Assembly: GCA_902561585.1 (NCBI GenBank)
Contig: CACEQK010000002.1
Location: forward strand, 1-64,000
Reading direction: 5' to 3'
From: an uncultured Pelagibacteraceae bacterium
GTDB lineage: Bacteria; Pseudomonadota; Alphaproteobacteria; Pelagibacterales; Pelagibacteraceae
DNA: 64,000 nt
Part shown: piece by piece, positions 18,732 through 37,597 of the stretch
Position numbering within the stretch: position 1 is the first letter of the stretch
How the letters are laid out: the number at the start of each line of letters is the position of its first letter
Notes under the pieces: generated by a model
The model's database searches: none
Seen by the model: the letters and a program-made list of their open reading frames with translations, nothing else
Told to the model about the DNA's origin: nothing
Translations under genes and position numbers: made by a program

Positions 18732-19658
18732 CTATGCGTTTACAGCAAGTTTACTAATTTGATCTGAATCTTGTTTATTAGAAATGGCTATGTTGTTCAA
18801 TTCTATAAAATCTATCGAAGGTTTATTCTTAAATAATTTTTTTAAAAACATATTACTTAATTCATGTCCACCTTGATGACATTTAATTTTACCGATAAGT
18901 CTATATCCTGATAGTAAAAAATCACCTATTAAGTCCAAAATTTTGTGATTAACAAACTCTTTTTTATTTCTTAAACCACCCTCATTTATAACTTTATCGT
19001 TATCAACCACAATTGCGTTTTCTAAAGATCCACCTTTTGCTAAACCATTTTTTTTTATTTTTTCTATATCATCGTATAAACAAAATGTTCTTGAATCTGA
19101 TATATCTTTTATATTATCAGTCAAAAGATTAAATTTGTTTCTTTGTTTACCAATTACTTTATTTTCATAATTTAATTGAAAGTCTACCTCAAAAGAAGAA
19201 TGAGCTGGCTCTATAGAGATTTTTCTATTTCCATCAATTAATTCGACTCTATCTATAACTTTAAGATACTTTCTTTTTTTTGAAAGGTTTATTAACTCTA
19301 CTTTATTTAAAATATCTATAAAATTTTTAGCTGAACCATCCATAATTGGAACTTCTTCGTTGTCAATTTCAATAATAACATTATCAATTCCAGTAATATA
19401 AAGAGCAGCAAGTAAATGTTCTACGGTCGATACTTTGACACCATGGCTATTCTCTAGAGTGGTACATAGTTTTGTTGATGTAACGTTTTTAAAATTTGCT
19501 TTAATAAAATTATTAATTTTAATATCTACTCTTTTAAAAACTATGCCACTGTCTTCATTTCCTGGTAAAAGAGTTAACTTACATTTTTTCCCAGTATGAA
19601 GTCCTACGCCTTCAAAAGTAACTTTTGTACTTAGGGTTTTTTGATATATATCGTACAT
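18732..19658 (-). CDS. lpxC: UDP-3-O-acyl-GlcNAc deacetylase
   Basis: KTLSTKVTFEGVGLHTGKKCKLTL; TVEHLLAALYITGIDN; NHKILDLIGDFLLSG. Start at internal Met (19658); the ORF track's 19802 start overextends into ftsA. Confidence 0.94.
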   Translation of the reverse strand: MYDIYQKTLSTKVTFEGVGLHTGKKCKLTLLPGNEDSGIVFKRVDIKINNFIKANFKNVTSTKLCTTLENSHGVKVSTVEHLLAALYITGIDNVIIEIDNEEVPIMDGSAKNFIDILNKVELINLSKKRKYLKVIDRVELIDGNRKISIEPAHSSFEVDFQLNYENKVIGKQRNKFNLLTDNIKDISDSRTFCLYDDIEKIKKNGLAKGGSLENAIVVDNDKVINEGGLRNKKEFVNHKILDLIGDFLLSGYRLIGKIKCHQGGHELSNMFLKKLFKNKPSIDFIELNNIAISNKQDSDQISKLAVNA

Positions 19659-19723
19659 CTGATTTGTTATACTTGAGAGATTATCTAAAATTAAAACAAC
19701 AAATGTTTCTAAAAATAACGACG

Positions 19724-20917
19724 TTAATGAAATATTTCTTGAAAAATTCGGGTTAAAAAGGTTTTTTTTGATTTTGTGACAGGAATCGCCTCTTTTTTCC
19801 AACCAAATTGAGCAATATTGTCTGCTTTATTTATAATTTGCTCAATCTCTGGCTTTTTCACTATTTTTAACTCATATTTTTTATTAAAGGCAAAACTTTT
19901 TTCATAAGCATGGTTAAAACAGGTAAAATGCTGTTGATCATTTATTTCTAAAAAAATTACATCAGTTTGCTCTAAAAGTTTTTTTAAATTTATGTTTCTG
20001 AAGTAAAATTTATCAGATAATTCATCAATTCTTGCTTCAGCAATTTTTGCGATTAAGCTTTTTTTTATTTTTCTATATTTTTGGCTATTGAAGTATTTTT
20101 CTTCTAATAACTCTTTATCTGAAATTTTACATATATTTTTGTTTTCTGAAATTATATTTTTTACTAAATTATTTTCTAAAAATGTGATTTTACAAATATC
20201 ATTTACTATTATTTCTGTTCCAAAATTAAATTTTTGCTCAAATTTAATTGCATTATTTTCGACATAAAATATTTTCGAATTATTTTTTTCAATTTGAGTG
20301 TAAAAAAAAGTATCAATTTTTTGATTAGTTTCGTTAACCAAAGATCCTTTTACAAAGCTCTCTAGTAAAATTTTTTTAATTTTTAGATTACATTGTTTAA
20401 AAATATTTTCTAAATTTTTATAATCATTTTTATTAATCAAATTGAATGCTAACTCATGAGAGTAAAAATCACCAAATAAACCTATAGGTAAGTTATCTAA
20501 TTTTTTTTTATCTAAACAATATCTTGAGTTAAAAATATGTATAATTTTTTTATTTTCTTCAAATTCTTCAACATATGATTTTAACAAATTTAAAATATAA
20601 GTAATATTTTCTTTAGAAATTTGTGTTCCATTAAGTCTTTTAAAACCAGATAAGTTTAAAAAGGAAGTTTCGAGATTATCTAAAATTAAGATTATTTCTT
20701 TAAAAGTATAATTTACTTTTTGTTCTATAAGTAAAATATTTCTTTTTATGAGATTAGTAACCTTGTTTAGATCTAAAATTTTATTTTCTTTGATACCATC
20801 GATTGGTGAAATTAATTTTTCTAAAATTTCAAAACTATTTGGTTCATCGGATCGTCCTATAATTATAGATATTTTCTCGTTGTCAATACTTATAAAGAGC
20901 TTAGGTAAATTATTCAT
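19724..20917 (-). CDS. ftsA: Highly divergent FtsA-like cell division protein
   Basis: 397 aa, position ftsQ-X-lpxC; C-terminal amphipathic helix KKTFLTRIFQEIFH; recognisable mainly by synteny and C-terminus. Confidence 0.7.
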   Translation of the reverse strand: MNNLPKLFISIDNEKISIIIGRSDEPNSFEILEKLISPIDGIKENKILDLNKVTNLIKRNILLIEQKVNYTFKEIILILDNLETSFLNLSGFKRLNGTQISKENITYILNLLKSYVEEFEENKKIIHIFNSRYCLDKKKLDNLPIGLFGDFYSHELAFNLINKNDYKNLENIFKQCNLKIKKILLESFVKGSLVNETNQKIDTFFYTQIEKNNSKIFYVENNAIKFEQKFNFGTEIIVNDICKITFLENNLVKNIISENKNICKISDKELLEEKYFNSQKYRKIKKSLIAKIAEARIDELSDKFYFRNINLKKLLEQTDVIFLEINDQQHFTCFNHAYEKSFAFNKKYELKIVKKPEIEQIINKADNIAQFGWKKEAIPVTKSKKTFLTRIFQEIFH

Positions 20918-29351: not shown

Positions 29352-32108
29352 TTAAATTCCTTTTATAATATTTTTACTAAAGTTATTTAAACCTGTAGCA
29401 TTAGATCCTTTAACCATTAAGTAATCATTATTAGAAATTATACTTCTTAAGTTAAAGTCTATATCCTCTGTGTTTTGCAAAATATTTCCTCTTTTATTTT
29501 TATTTAGATTCTTATAGGTGAATATAGTTTGTTTTCCCTTAACGAATACTTTGTCGATATCAGAATTGTTAATAACTTTTGAAATTTCTTCATGATATTT
29601 TCTCGATTTATGGCCTAATTCCAACATATCGCCCAATACTAAATATTTTTTAAATTTTTCTTTTTTTAATGAGTCAAATCTTAAAATGGCATTTTTTACT
29701 GACAGTGGGTTTGCATTATAACTTTCATCAATAAATCTAAATTTTTTCTTATATCTTAAAATATTATATTTTTTCCCTCTTCCCGCTGTTGGTTGTAAAT
29801 TCTTTATTAGTGATTTTATCTTATTGATATCAATTTTTAATGCATGCAGTACAGCTAAGCTCGCCAGAATATTATAAATATAAATATCTCTAAATTCATA
29901 AATTAAGCTCTGATTATCTATATTTACAAAAATTTTTGTATTTCCATTTTTTTCATAAATCTTTTTCAATAAGATATTTGACTTTCTATGTTTGCCAAAA
30001 GTAATTATTTCAAGATTAAAGGATTTTGCTTTTTGATATAAAAAATTAAAAAATTTGTCATCTCTATTTAAAATAATTTTTCCACCTCTTTTGATGCTTT
30101 CTATTATTTCAGATTTTGCTTTAGCTATTCCTTTTACATTTTTAAAATTTTCTAAATGTGCTTCACCAATATTTGTAATTATACCTAAATGAGGTCTTAT
30201 TAATTTTGATAAGTTTTTAATTTCCCCTGCCTTGCTCATTCCAACTTCGAAAACACCGTATTTATCGAATGAACTTAAATTAGATAAACTTATAGGAACA
30301 CCTAAGTGATTGTTAAAAGATTTTGGTGAAAAATATGTTTCACCAAATTTTTTTAGCAAATGACCTAGTAAATTTTTAAGAGATGTTTTTCCAGCACTTC
30401 CAGTGATAGCAATTATATTTGCAGAAGATTTTTCACGTTTTAGTTTTGCGAAGGAATTTAAAAATGAGATAGCATTTTTTACCTTGATTATGTTTTTTCC
30501 AATTTTTTTTGCAGAGTCAGATACGACACAACTTGCGCCTTTGTTTAGAGCATCTTTAACAAATCTATTTCCATTATTTTTTTTGCCTTTGAGTGCTAAA
30601 AATAAATTACCCTTTTTTATTGATCTAGTATCAGTGGACAATCCATCGAAATTAATAAATCTTTTATAACCCGTAATTTTTTGTAAAATTAAATTGTTTT
30701 CAAAATGATTCAATTTTTTTTTAGAGAGATTTGCTGATTTTATAGTAGTTTCTTTTATAATTTTTTTATCAGATGTTTTATAAATTTTATTTTTATAAAT
30801 TTGAATTTCCTCATGCCCTTTTCCTGCTACTAATATTATTTCTCCAGGAATTGCCTTCTTAATAGACTGTTGAATAGCATTACGTCTATTTCCAATATTA
30901 AAACTTTTTTTTCTTGGAATATATTTTAAGAGCTCTTTTCTAATTTTTTGAGGGTCTTCATTCCTTGGATTATCGTCTGTTATATATATTTTGCTACAAT
31001 ATTTATTTGCTATCCTAGCCATTAATGGTCTTTTTTTTTTATCTCTGTCTCCTCCGCAACCAAAAACAATAGTTATATTTTTTTTATTTTCATTTTTTAA
31101 ACACTCTAAAGTTTTTAAAAGGGCATCTGGGGTATGAGCATAATCTAAAAAAACTTTTATTTTATTTGGAAATTTTTTTACTAATTCTAATCTTCCATTT
31201 ACATCATTGATTTTTTTTATTTTTCCGTAAATTAAATGATCTTTTAGTCCACATATTTTTGCAACTAAAATTCCCATAGCTAAATTCTTTTTCTTAAAAT
31301 CTGGAAAAGCTGGTAATTGATTTTTAACCTTTAAAAATTCATTATTTATATCAACTAATTTAAATCCTCTTTTTTTGGATATCTTTTTTAAAATTTTAAA
31401 TGGTAAAATATCTTTATCTGAAATTATTTTAGTTTTTTTTCTCAAAATTTTTCTGAACAAAATAAGCTTAGCATTCAAATATGCTTTCATATTCTTATGA
31501 TAATCCAAATGGTCTTGACTGAAGTTAGTAAAAACAGCCGATTTAAAATCTATATGATGAAGTCTCTCTTGTTGCAAACCGTGACTTGAAGCCTCGATAA
31601 TTACATTTTCAATCTTTTTTTTTTTAAGAAAGTTTAGAGTTTTATGTAATGATATCGTGTCAGGTGATGTCAAACTTGTTTTTAAAAATTTGTTATTATA
31701 TTTAATTCCCAACGTTCCAATTGAAGCAACAGGTTTATTGTTTAACCTAAATAGTTGATAAAACATATCAGCAACAGATGTTTTTCCATTAGTGCCAGTA
31801 ACAGCAATTATGTTTTTCGGTTTTAAGTTATAAAACCTTGAAGCAATTTCGCTTAAAAAATTTCTTACATTTTTCTTTTTAATTACAAGTATATTTTTAT
31901 CTTTGAATTTACATTTATTTGAACAAATTATGACGGAGGCCCCTTTATTAATTGCTTGTTTGATAAAATTTTCTCCGTTCTCCTTTTTTCCCTTAATGGC
32001 AAAAAAGATAAAATTTTTTTTTGTGCTGTTACTATTTGATGAAATTCCTTTTACTGAAATATTTCTTTTATTAAAAGGGATTTCTTTAATTAAATTTTTC
32101 AACAACAT
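29352..32108 (-). CDS. murE-murF: MurE-MurF fusion
   Basis: Single 918-aa ORF: MurE half (TGTNGKTSVADMFYQL, DYAHTPDALLKTL, DNPRNEDP) and MurF half (LSTDTRSIKKGNLFLALKG, TGSAGKTSLKNLL, DESYNANPLSVKNAI). Confidence 0.95.
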   Translation of the reverse strand: MLLKNLIKEIPFNKRNISVKGISSNSNSTKKNFIFFAIKGKKENGENFIKQAINKGASVIICSNKCKFKDKNILVIKKKNVRNFLSEIASRFYNLKPKNIIAVTGTNGKTSVADMFYQLFRLNNKPVASIGTLGIKYNNKFLKTSLTSPDTISLHKTLNFLKKKKIENVIIEASSHGLQQERLHHIDFKSAVFTNFSQDHLDYHKNMKAYLNAKLILFRKILRKKTKIISDKDILPFKILKKISKKRGFKLVDINNEFLKVKNQLPAFPDFKKKNLAMGILVAKICGLKDHLIYGKIKKINDVNGRLELVKKFPNKIKVFLDYAHTPDALLKTLECLKNENKKNITIVFGCGGDRDKKKRPLMARIANKYCSKIYITDDNPRNEDPQKIRKELLKYIPRKKSFNIGNRRNAIQQSIKKAIPGEIILVAGKGHEEIQIYKNKIYKTSDKKIIKETTIKSANLSKKKLNHFENNLILQKITGYKRFINFDGLSTDTRSIKKGNLFLALKGKKNNGNRFVKDALNKGASCVVSDSAKKIGKNIIKVKNAISFLNSFAKLKREKSSANIIAITGSAGKTSLKNLLGHLLKKFGETYFSPKSFNNHLGVPISLSNLSSFDKYGVFEVGMSKAGEIKNLSKLIRPHLGIITNIGEAHLENFKNVKGIAKAKSEIIESIKRGGKIILNRDDKFFNFLYQKAKSFNLEIITFGKHRKSNILLKKIYEKNGNTKIFVNIDNQSLIYEFRDIYIYNILASLAVLHALKIDINKIKSLIKNLQPTAGRGKKYNILRYKKKFRFIDESYNANPLSVKNAILRFDSLKKEKFKKYLVLGDMLELGHKSRKYHEEISKVINNSDIDKVFVKGKQTIFTYKNLNKNKRGNILQNTEDIDFNLRSIISNNDYLMVKGSNATGLNNFSKNIIKGI

Positions 32109-33807: not shown

Positions 33808-34120
33808 CTATATTTATTAAATTGGATAACTTCTTTTCGAGTGTATTAAAATCGTCAACATCGTAAAATATGTTTGAATGTTTAATTGGTTCAAATTTTT
33901 CTAAATCTTTGCTATTAAATTTTTTCTCAATTTCATTTGGTGAAGATAAGTATGAAAATTCCATTTCAGCTTCACTAATGTTTTTTTCTTTAGCTATAAT
34001 TTTGATATTTAAACCTTTTATTTGTTTTTCTATTATTCTTGACTGATTTTTAACTAAAGAAGTTATTATTAAAAAAAATGTAAATACAGCTAACGAGAAA
34101 AATAATTTTGAATTAAACAT
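33782..34120 (-). CDS. ftsL: FtsL-like bitopic division protein
   Basis: 112 aa, N-terminal TM, between rsmH and ftsI; identified by synteny. Confidence 0.65.
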   Translation of the reverse strand: MFNSKLFFSLAVFTFFLIITSLVKNQSRIIEKQIKGLNIKIIAKEKNISEAEMEFSYLSSPNEIEKKFNSKDLEKFEPIKHSNIFYDVDDFNTLEKKLSNLINIDEKKIRKK

Positions 34121-35123
34121 TTGCTGACTCCAGTTCTAAATAATTTTTAAACTTATCTATTAACTCATGAGGATATTGAAAATCAGTATTGCTTCTAATT
34201 GCAAACCTTAACTTCGCAGATCTTGCTCTATTGTTTATTTCCAATTCTTTTTTAGAGGGTTTAAGAGCTTTATTTTTGTATGCCTCAAACAAATATGCCT
34301 GTTCAATCTTATTTTCGGGAAGATATCTTGATGATCGTGATTTGTTTTTTGAATAATTATTAAAAAAAAATTTTACTATTTTATCCTCAATAGAATGAAA
34401 GGTTACAACTAAAATTTTTCCACCTGGTTTTAATTTTTTAGTAGCATTAATAATTCCATTTATTAACTCGCTTATTTCTTTATTTACAAAAATTCTAAGA
34501 GCCTGAAATGTTTTAGTGCAAGGATTTATTTTTTTTGAAAAATTTTTTTTTTTACTTTCTTCAATAATTTTTACTAGTTGATTAGTTTTGGTTATCCTTT
34601 TTTTCTTTCTAGAATTAACAATGTTTCTTGCAATTCTTGTGGCTTCTTTTTCATCACCAAGAAATTTAATTATCGACTTTAAATCTGTTTCACTAAGATT
34701 ATTTACAGCATCTAAAGCTGAGATATTATTAAGGCCCATTGCCATGTCCAATTGTTTATCTGACTTGAATGAAAAACCTCTTTCAAGGTTATCTAATTGA
34801 ATGGAAGATAGACCTAAATCAAATATTATTGCATCAACATGATCCTCGATAATAGTATCTAGCTGACTAAATTTTATTTGATAAAATTTAAATCTTTTTG
34901 GGAATTTTCTTTCTAGTTCTTCTGCAATTGATTTAATATTATTATCTCTATCTATTGCTGCTATTTCAGTTTTTGGAATTTTTAAAATTTCTTTAGAATA
35001 TCCACCTCCACCAAATGTACAGTCAATATATTTGCCTCCATTGAATGGAGAGGTTATTTTTAGAACCTCATTCAACATCACTGGAAAATGGGAGGATTCC
35101 AGTGATGATGTATGATTGTTCAT
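34113..35123 (-). CDS. rsmH: 16S rRNA m4C1402 methyltransferase
   Basis: HFPVMLNEVLKI; DCTFGGGGYSKEIL; ARSAKLRFAIR. Confidence 0.95.
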   Translation of the reverse strand: MNNHTSSLESSHFPVMLNEVLKITSPFNGGKYIDCTFGGGGYSKEILKIPKTEIAAIDRDNNIKSIAEELERKFPKRFKFYQIKFSQLDTIIEDHVDAIIFDLGLSSIQLDNLERGFSFKSDKQLDMAMGLNNISALDAVNNLSETDLKSIIKFLGDEKEATRIARNIVNSRKKKRITKTNQLVKIIEESKKKNFSKKINPCTKTFQALRIFVNKEISELINGIINATKKLKPGGKILVVTFHSIEDKIVKFFFNNYSKNKSRSSRYLPENKIEQAYLFEAYKNKALKPSKKELEINNRARSAKLRFAIRSNTDFQYPHELIDKFKNYLELESANV

Positions 35124-35141: not shown

Positions 35142-36635
35142 TTAAAATTTTTGTTTCCTTAAGAAGGCAGGAATTTCAAAATCTTCTTCTTCATTTAGAT
35201 CCTGATCAAATAATTCATCTGAGTCTCGGTTAGATTGTTCGTTATTTTCATTATTAATTTCTTCGAACGTATTATTTTCTTCAGAAAATAGTTTAGGCGT
35301 ATATTCTTCCTCATTATTTATACTATCTGCCTGCTCTGTAATTTCTTCATTGTTCTCTAAACTGGAGTTCTCAATATAAGAGGCGCTTTCAATTGATACT
35401 CCTGTCGGAAGATCATTATAATTATTTTCAGTATTAACATTGTTTGCCTCTTCATTATTTAAGCTAGTTGAAGCATCATTAATTACATCGTTTTGAAGTT
35501 CATCTTTAATTTCAAAACTTTCGTCAAGTTTTAAAGCTGTTGCTCCATCAATCGCGCCTAATGCACTATTATCCATTCTAGGATTATGAGAAAACAAATT
35601 TTCTGAGTATCCAGAATTTCTATTCTGAATTCTTGATACCATATTCAAAACTGTTTTGTTTTCTGTTTTGTGACCATCTAGTGCAGTTGCAACAATTGAA
35701 ACTCTAATTTTTCCATTAAGTTCGGTATCTTCAATTGCTCCAAAAATTAATTCTGCTTCAGGGTCTACCTCTGCTCTAATTCTATTAACGGATTCTTCTA
35801 CTTCAAATAAAGTTAGATCATCTCCTCCAGTTATATTCACTAATAATCCTTTTGCTCCCTTCAAAGAGTACTCATCAATAAGAGGATTATTTAATGCCAT
35901 TTCAGTAGCTGCTTTACCTCTATTTTCACCTTCAGCTTCACCAGTGCCCATCATAGCTTTGCCCATTGAACTCATTACAGTTTCTACATCTGCAAAATCA
36001 AGGTTTATCATTCCAGGTCTTACCATAAGATCTGTCACACTTTGAACTCCGTGTTTAAGTACATTGTTTGATAAGATAAAAGCGTTTTTAAAAGTTGTAG
36101 TTTCACTAGCAATTTTGAAAAGATTTTGATTAGGTACTACTATAACTGTATCTAAATGTTTTTTAAATTCTTCCAAACCTTGCATGGCTCTTCTCATTCT
36201 TTTTGGGCCTTCATAAGAAAAAGGAAGTGTCGTCACTCCAACAGTTAAAATGTTTAGCTCTCTAGCAGCTTTTGCAATTACATGTGAAGCTCCTGTGCCA
36301 GTTCCCCCTCCCATTCCTGAGGTTATAAAAACCATATTTGCACCTTGTATATAACTTGTTATTTCATTTAATGACTCGTCAGCTGCAGCTTGGCCAATAT
36401 CATCTTTGGCTCCCGCGCCTAAACCTTTAGTTAAGTTCATTCCAATTTGAATTTTTGCATCAGCTTTACTCATTTTCAGATCCTGAGCGTCTGTGTTAAC
36501 TGCAACAAATTCTACACCCTTCATACCAGAGTCAATCATTGCATTTATTGCATTACCTCCAGCACCACCTACTCCTAATACTAAGATCCTTGGTTTTAAT
36601 TCTTTAAGTTCACCACCACCAATATTTATACTCAT
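35142..36635 (-). CDS. ftsZ: Cell division GTPase FtsZ
   Basis: GVGGAGGNAINAMI; GGGTGTGAS tubulin signature; long acidic/Asn-rich linker; C-terminal EIPAFLRKQKF. Confidence 0.97.
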   Translation of the reverse strand: MSINIGGGELKELKPRILVLGVGGAGGNAINAMIDSGMKGVEFVAVNTDAQDLKMSKADAKIQIGMNLTKGLGAGAKDDIGQAAADESLNEITSYIQGANMVFITSGMGGGTGTGASHVIAKAARELNILTVGVTTLPFSYEGPKRMRRAMQGLEEFKKHLDTVIVVPNQNLFKIASETTTFKNAFILSNNVLKHGVQSVTDLMVRPGMINLDFADVETVMSSMGKAMMGTGEAEGENRGKAATEMALNNPLIDEYSLKGAKGLLVNITGGDDLTLFEVEESVNRIRAEVDPEAELIFGAIEDTELNGKIRVSIVATALDGHKTENKTVLNMVSRIQNRNSGYSENLFSHNPRMDNSALGAIDGATALKLDESFEIKDELQNDVINDASTSLNNEEANNVNTENNYNDLPTGVSIESASYIENSSLENNEEITEQADSINNEEEYTPKLFSEENNTFEEINNENNEQSNRDSDELFDQDLNEEEDFEIPAFLRKQKF

Positions 36636-37096
36636 TACAGTTCTCCCTTCTGTTTATTTTCCCATTTTAAATTAGATCTATTTTGAAAAGCCTTTTTTCT
36701 TGCAACTATTTTAAATTTATCAAAATTATTTGGCTCCCAAATTTGAAATGTTTTTCCTAAACCAACAAATAAAACACTGTTTTTAATTTTTGCATGATTG
36801 AGTAACTTTTCTGATAGTGAAATTCTGCCTTCAGTATCAAACTGTAAATTTTCACTTTCAGATAAGATCGAAGTAGCAAAAAAATCTCTTTTTTCCTCAA
36901 AAGGGTTTAATGAGTCTATGGTGTTTGAAAGTTTTTCAATTCTGTCTTGTGAGCAAGCTTCTAGTGCGGCATAATTAAAAGATGGGTAGCTGACAAACCC
37001 ATTATAGCCAAGTGAACTCAAATGTGATCTAAAAGTTGCTGGCACTGAAACGCGTCCTTTCTTGTCTATTTTGTTTTCGTAACTTGATAAAAACAT
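36635..37096 (-). CDS. mraZ: MraZ transcriptional regulator
   Basis: 153 aa; NKIDKKGRVSVPATFR and FDTEGRISLSEKLL (two AbrB-like repeats). Confidence 0.93.
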   Translation of the reverse strand: MFLSSYENKIDKKGRVSVPATFRSHLSSLGYNGFVSYPSFNYAALEACSQDRIEKLSNTIDSLNPFEEKRDFFATSILSESENLQFDTEGRISLSEKLLNHAKIKNSVLFVGLGKTFQIWEPNNFDKFKIVARKKAFQNRSNLKWENKQKGEL

Positions 37097-37147
37097 TTTT
37101 ATTTAAAAAACCTCTATAATTTAAAATTTTAAACATACTCTCCATAA

Positions 37148-37172
37148 TGGGATTAAATGGGATAGTATGGGT
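37148..37172. promoter_or_regulatory. Putative MraZ operator: three TGGG boxes at 10-bp spacing
   Basis: TGGGATTAAATGGGATAGTATGGGT on the + strand. Confidence 0.7.
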
Positions 37173-37189
37173 TTTTAGAAATTAGTCAA
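37162..37189 (-). promoter_or_regulatory. Putative sigma70 promoter of mraZ
   Basis: Minus strand TTGACT-16 nt-TACTAT; the -10 lies between TGGG boxes 2 and 3. Confidence 0.5.
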
Positions 37190-37242
37190 TAAGTTTGTAT
37201 TTACTTAAAAAGTACAAAAGTAGAACATTATAATAGAATTAA

Positions 37243-37597
37243 GCCAGATAATCTGTAAGCCGGGTTCTGTCATTGAAGATGTCATTTCTCTAGGCTTAAA
37301 TTCACATTTAAGCTCAAGCGGTTAACCCAGAAGACTAACTAAAGACTGTTTTTTGTGTTTCCACGATGTCTTCTCTATTTAACCTTGCTCCCAGTGGGGT
37401 TTGCCTTGCGTTTTTTGTTACCAAAAAACCGGTGAGCTCTTACCTCGCCGTTTCACCCTTGCCTTGATAAGGCGGTTTGTTTTCTGTGGCACTATCCCTG
37501 AAGTCACCTTCGCCAGTCATTAACTGGCACTGTGTCTTTATGGAGCCCGGACTTTCCTCTATTAGAATTCTAATAGTAACAATCCAATTATCTGGCA
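37243..37597 (-). ncRNA. rnpB: RNase P RNA, bacterial A type
   Basis: Minus strand contains GAGGAAAGTCCGGGCTCC and GAAGGTGACTTCAGGGATAGTGCCACAGAAA; P1 stem GCCAGATAAT/ATTATCTGGC closes the ends. Confidence 0.95.

Follow-up and report, generated by a model that had tools for sequence, protein, structure and literature searches.

The locus raises the question of whether the repeated boxes in front of mraZ in a SAR11 genome form the operator at which MraZ limits transcription of its own operon, and how such control would reach the division gene ftsZ. SAR11 bacteria, which rank among the ocean's most abundant cells, have kept few regulators; an MraZ operator with ftsZ as second gene would place division-protein supply among the few circuits retained. 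We analysed a 64-kb stretch of Pelagibacteraceae DNA (the window), for which a preliminary description had placed three TGGG boxes at an exact 10-bp period over the predicted mraZ promoter and had recognized a 153-aa protein as MraZ. Both observations were borne out. The array (37148..37171, plus strand, TGGGATTAAATGGGATAGTATGGG) has its boxes at 37148-51, 37158-61 and 37168-71 on the plus strand; because mraZ lies on the minus strand, these read CCCA, or gene-wise more fully CCCAT, in the orientation of the gene. The predicted -10 hexamer TACTAT (37162..37167, minus strand) lies between boxes 2 and 3, where it had been claimed to be (37167-37162), and a spacer of 16 nt separates it from the predicted -35 hexamer TTGACT (37184..37189, minus strand). 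These hexamers are consensus matches, of a kind that occurs 8 times in 800 bp against 2.3 expected. The array appears to cover the -10 and the probable start site, the latter predicted near 37153-37156.

The mraZ gene itself (36635..37096, minus strand, 153 aa) passes the curated equivalog model NCBIfam NF001477 with 173.9 bits (cut-off 162), and its product carries two tandem MraZ half-domains, with Pfam PF02381 above its cut-off in two stretches. It shares 95% identity with the MraZ of HIMB058, and solved MraZ structures match it weakly by sequence (best E 4.3e-5). It is the first gene of the dcw cluster, in the order mraZ-ftsZ-rsmH-ftsL-ftsI (ftsL being an ftsL-sized ORF assigned by position), followed by murE/F-mraY-murD-ftsW-murG-murC-murB-ddl-ftsQ-ftsA-lpxC as assigned from sequence and position. 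The mraZ stop and the ATG of ftsZ (35142..36635, minus strand, 497 aa) overlap by one base (TAATG), and rsmH (mraW; 34113..35123, minus strand) is here the third gene. Most mraZ-ftsZ junctions in the genus overlap, as ATGA/GTGA in 57/90 loci and as TAATG in 19/90. Between ftsA and lpxC, where ftsZ would usually stand, there is none; the gene lies behind mraZ instead, and no second ftsZ was found in the assembly. Every sufficiently long locus from the two Pelagibacterales families has ftsZ directly after mraZ, and rsmH takes that position in 115 other loci and in nearly all other proteobacteria sampled. The earlier proposal that ftsZ is the first gene under MraZ is thus upheld in that mraZ is followed by ftsZ, of which the assembly has no other copy, but the arrangement is order-wide and not local. 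Two loci from one further alphaproteobacterial family (L048 and L060) also have ftsZ right after mraZ; the rearrangement is therefore older than the order, or happened twice. We also noted that at 18732-20917 (minus strand) the ORF in the ftsA position is directly followed by an lpxC-like ORF with a 79-base overlap as listed, and that a 918-aa ORF (29352-32108, minus strand) is an apparent MurE-MurF ligase fusion in which two nucleotide-binding motifs, AVTGTNGKTS and AITGSAGKTS, were recognized by eye.

The array is exceptional both within the genome and in its conservation. From base composition, the exact motif is expected ~1e-4 times per 64 kb and 3.5e-7 times in the gap between mraZ and rnpB. 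When up to 2 mismatches were allowed, the window still gave a single match, the exact array, against 0.59 expected at that tolerance, and it is the only exact three-box match in the 825-kb assembly. A search of that assembly for a wider MraZ regulon returned no second exact three-box site, and matches with 2 mismatches were about as numerous as with a reversed control. Exactly one exact site occurs in 53/61 genomes of the same genus (control pattern, 0), just upstream of mraZ wherever the coordinates of mraZ are known too. For footprinting we compared 300-bp regions upstream of mraZ, with dinucleotide shuffles as control. Arrays of three CCCA boxes with this period occur in 28/28 loci of the genus and in 31/37 other loci of the family, the remaining 6 having two boxes; in the sister family 12 of 13 loci have one, with box number ranging from two to five. 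Among 88 loci from other Alphaproteobacteria, at least three CCCA boxes occur in 61 and at least two in 77; coding-strand TGGG reaches at least three boxes in none and at least two in three. A MraZ match is absent from about 20 of the 144 alphaproteobacterial genomes in the class sample. The bias is reversed in 31 loci from other Pseudomonadota, including E. coli, where 16 have at least two TGGG and two have two CCCA; the gamma- and betaproteobacterial loci are a sample and not a census, having been taken as the top PF02381 hits in a draw across the phylum. Box pairs in the mraZ upstream regions of the two Pelagibacterales families lie 10, 20, 30 or 40 bp apart and at almost no other distance, with some 11-, 21-, 31- and 41-bp steps as well in the Alphaproteobacteria. 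Three boxes were never reached in the shuffles. The preliminary description had named a lack of conservation in close relatives as one observation that would refute it, and the boxes are kept in close and distant relatives alike. Since the same CCCA array precedes mraZ across the Alphaproteobacteria, the array travels with the gene.

Comparison with characterized MraZ sites reveals that the boxes, seen from the gene, occupy the strand opposite to that of the E. coli boxes, and that this flip is class-wide in the Alphaproteobacteria sampled. The E. coli Pmra operator likewise consists of TGGG direct repeats at an exact 10-bp period immediately upstream of mraZ, the first dcw gene; its coding strand carries TGGGAAATTGTGGGGCAAAGTGGG just before the mraZ ATG (locus L033), with the same period as here. 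However, in E. coli the boxes belong to the coding strand and come after the -10; here the template strand carries them, and they extend over the -10 and probable start site. The gene after mraZ is rsmH in E. coli but ftsZ here. Examined for coding-strand repeats downstream of the -10, the window instead shows CCCA on the coding strand and the -10 inside the array. The claim that the architecture is the same as in E. coli therefore holds for repeat and period but not for strand and placement. In Burkholderia cenocepacia, MraZ binding to direct repeats of 10-bp period was demonstrated by gel shift (PMC7761207). The PmraBc site shares the period (a 7-nt repeat plus a 3-nt spacer) and overlaps the start site, as the array here probably does. 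It differs in gene order and in having four repeats, which that study places downstream of the -10 'as in E. coli' (PMC7761207). The target in Mollicutes is the direct repeat AAAGTG[T/G] (Fisunov 2016, as cited in PMC8475190); it too consists of tandem repeats before mraZ in a reduced genome, but with a different core sequence and with ftsZ fourth there and second here. In M. genitalium a single motif of this type occurs in the chromosome, and it sits at the mraZ promoter (PMC8475190).

We found no earlier description of the strand flip in a literature search that mostly covered papers accessible without subscription; its novelty is not proven, because this coverage is incomplete and lacks the original study of the operator in E. 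coli (Eraso 2014). The same search returned nothing on Pelagibacter mraZ or on MraZ with TGGGN, nor did it yield data on DNA binding or expression for MraZ from SAR11 or from any alphaproteobacterium. The flip makes a clear prediction on the placement of the MraZ ring on DNA relative to RNA polymerase, and alphaproteobacterial MraZ targets could be annotated correctly by searching for CCCAT, not TGGGN, before the gene.

Because the boxes are kept in the genus, in most of the family and in the sister family, an MraZ operator is the best reading of the array. We put the probability at about 0.88 that MraZ represses its own operon there, where binding, repression and the start site are deduced from the DNA and from known relatives of the system. 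The operator type is known; its layout is a variant, and a class-wide one. Elsewhere MraZ acts as an oligomeric ring on direct repeats and represses its own operon (PMC7761207, PMC8475190), and in studied species it is a ring-forming AbrB-type protein. Here MraZ would bind all three TGGG boxes from one side of the helix, as the 10-bp period suggests. In doing so it would occlude the -10 and probable start site and so block RNA polymerase. Since polymerase would be blocked at the covered promoter, MraZ would limit the transcription of its own operon, with less expression of mraZ and the genes behind it, ftsZ first and then the whole cluster. The earlier suggestion that the mra autoregulatory circuit survives here is accordingly favoured by the identity of MraZ, the conserved array and the single site per genome, but not in the form of an architecture identical to that of E. 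coli.

Several other explanations of the array have to be weighed against this. That the boxes are short is all that speaks for a chance pattern, and chance is ruled out by the conservation of the array in every locus of the genus, its expected frequency in the window and its failure to appear in shuffles. Another regulator of the alphaproteobacterial dcw promoter might bind the boxes, or they might be part of an unusual promoter; the array is tied to the promoter by a fixed distance from TTGAC, and its orientation is opposite to that of characterized MraZ sites. This distance is 18-19 nt from TTGAC to the array in all loci of the genus and in 30/31 other three-box loci of the family. In other Alphaproteobacteria TTGAC mostly lies 6-7 or 16-17 bp before the first box, and such a group-dependent register to the -35, together with a box number of 2 to 5, would not be tolerated by a core promoter element. 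TGGG core, 10-bp period and gene are moreover all as in known MraZ sites, and the single such site per genome stands before mraZ itself, so that we regard a different regulator or an unusual promoter as very improbable. A little less so, but still unlikely, is that MraZ binds the array and mainly activates, or only fine-tunes, the operon. Overexpression of MraZ in M. gallisepticum went with raised FtsZ (PMC8475190), but MraZ of E. coli and M. genitalium represses (PMC8475190), loss of mraZ in the latter raising the mraW, MG_223 and ftsZ transcripts (PMC8475190), and boxes that overlie the -10 and probable start site are placed like those of a steric repressor.

In addition to repression at the operator, a second layer of control on the mRNA is probable, in the form of a conserved out-of-frame leader ORF over the mraZ start that would be translated and would affect the gene. 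In the window this ORF (38 aa, 37029..37145, minus strand, +1 frame relative to mraZ) begins with ATGGAG directly after the array, has an SD-like GGAG at 37140-37143 and a second ATG at 37136, crosses the mraZ ATG and stops at mraZ codon 22. This frame had not been anticipated and surprised us more than the operator did. We followed the second frame through the Pelagibacteraceae loci (L003-L023, L063-L089, L131, L180-L194, L199 and L207-L286). In nearly all loci an SD-like site and a start codon directly follow the array, with the start codon at 1 mod 3 from the mraZ ATG, at distances of 7, 10, 13, 16, 22, 37, 40, 79 nt and others. The 27 distinct leaders of the genus contain 1 stop in 480 codons in the second frame; the other two frames have 79/476 and 65/480. 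Within mraZ the frame stays open through codon 19 and stops at codon 20 or 22 in 126/127 Pelagibacteraceae loci, against ~0.5 open loci of 127 expected from synonymous resampling; counting distinct versions of codons 2-19 only, 113/114 are open. Sites that could create a stop, and codon 18, are fixed, and neighbouring synonymous sites are free to vary. Where a T would make a second-frame stop, codons end in C at Tyr/Phe6 (127/127), Asn8 (126/127) and Asp11 (125/127), although the T-ending form is generally preferred and the C-ending background for such codons is ~10-30%; codon 10 is never ATT, although ATT makes up more than half of the Ile codons. Selection on the second frame is well supported by these patterns, with the qualification that related genomes are not independent.

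The family has one exception (L220), in which the leader is in frame with mraZ (48 nt) and the codons AAT8 and GAT11 occur. In L278 the leader is also in frame (48 nt) and the C-ending codons are retained, and in L208 one extra A puts the leader in the third frame, possibly through an assembly error. Sister-family loci have their upstream start in the frame of mraZ, and the second frame is open in 1/13 of them. Several sister-family loci (L026-L032 and L196-L198) carry an in-frame N-terminal MraZ extension beginning MLIILITNFFLKMALFL from the upstream start, and four to five boxes.

The second frame is very likely a translated ORF, and we suspect that it acts in translational control. With the better ribosome site, an ORF in another frame would make initiation at the mraZ ATG less frequent. 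Its end is marked by a further invariant feature. Codon 18 of mraZ, a valine (37043..37045, minus strand), is GTG in 127/127 Pelagibacteraceae loci, where GTG accounts for 5-7% of Val codons in the background. In the window its first base precedes that of the overlapping ORF's stop codon by 14 nt, and in every locus except L220 the second frame stops 8 or 14 nt after the first base of this GTG. The fixed position of the stop next to this GTG, itself invariant and preceded by an SD, is suggestive of reinitiation at residue 18 with further coupling to ftsZ. Tentatively, the flipped operator and termination of the leader ORF may therefore form a two-layer switch, in which ribosomes would load at the leader ORF beside the operator, cross the mraZ start out of frame and terminate at codon 20-22; there they would reinitiate at GTG18 to give a shortened MraZ before moving on into the overlapping start of ftsZ. 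If so, FtsZ could be made with little full-length repressor.

A programmed frameshift that fuses the leader peptide to MraZ would explain why the leader start codons keep to one frame although their distances vary from 7 to 79 nt, and the sister family has its in-frame N-terminal extension at the same place. We judged this unlikely. The loci share no slippery site at the mraZ start, the codon-20 stops (TGC TAG) have no slippable codon before them, and an early frameshift would need neither the mraZ ATG, which is kept in 127/127 loci, nor a frame open 20 codons into mraZ. Constraint on the nucleotides or on an RNA structure was rejected as well: RNAalifold gave only -5.1 kcal/mol for 7 distinct leaders, and neighbouring synonymous sites are variable. 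A functional leader peptide fits less well, as its residues are poorly conserved. Regulatory uORFs and overlapping ORFs with termination-reinitiation exist in bacteria. Examples are given in PMC12121999 and PMC9841429. Like these, the frame described here is a short ORF with its own Shine-Dalgarno sequence that overlaps the next start out of frame; unlike them, its overlap is family-wide, reaches 20-22 codons into the gene and ends beside an invariant GTG. Our search found no literature report of an upstream or overlapping ORF at mraZ, and we take a frame so consistently held open as strong evidence, on evolutionary grounds, that translational control adds a hitherto unreported layer to the regulation of this key division operon.

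Upstream of mraZ lies rnpB (RNase P RNA class A, 37240..37595, minus strand, 308 bits), and an amidase gene on the same strand is also located upstream. The intervening DNA contains the putative motif GTTCTACTTTTGTAC (37212..37226, minus strand), conserved in the genus and like the alphaproteobacterial LexA box, 22 bp upstream of the -35. It is kept in most of the genus, in some members with GTGC; it is degenerate in some members and absent outside the genus. In the same genomes a umuD-umuC-like pair is preceded by GTTCTTGTTTTGTTC (L297, L312 and L320), to which the motif is similar, and through this likeness GTTCTACTTTTGTAC is a possible LexA box that would give the SOS response an input into mraZ-ftsZ.
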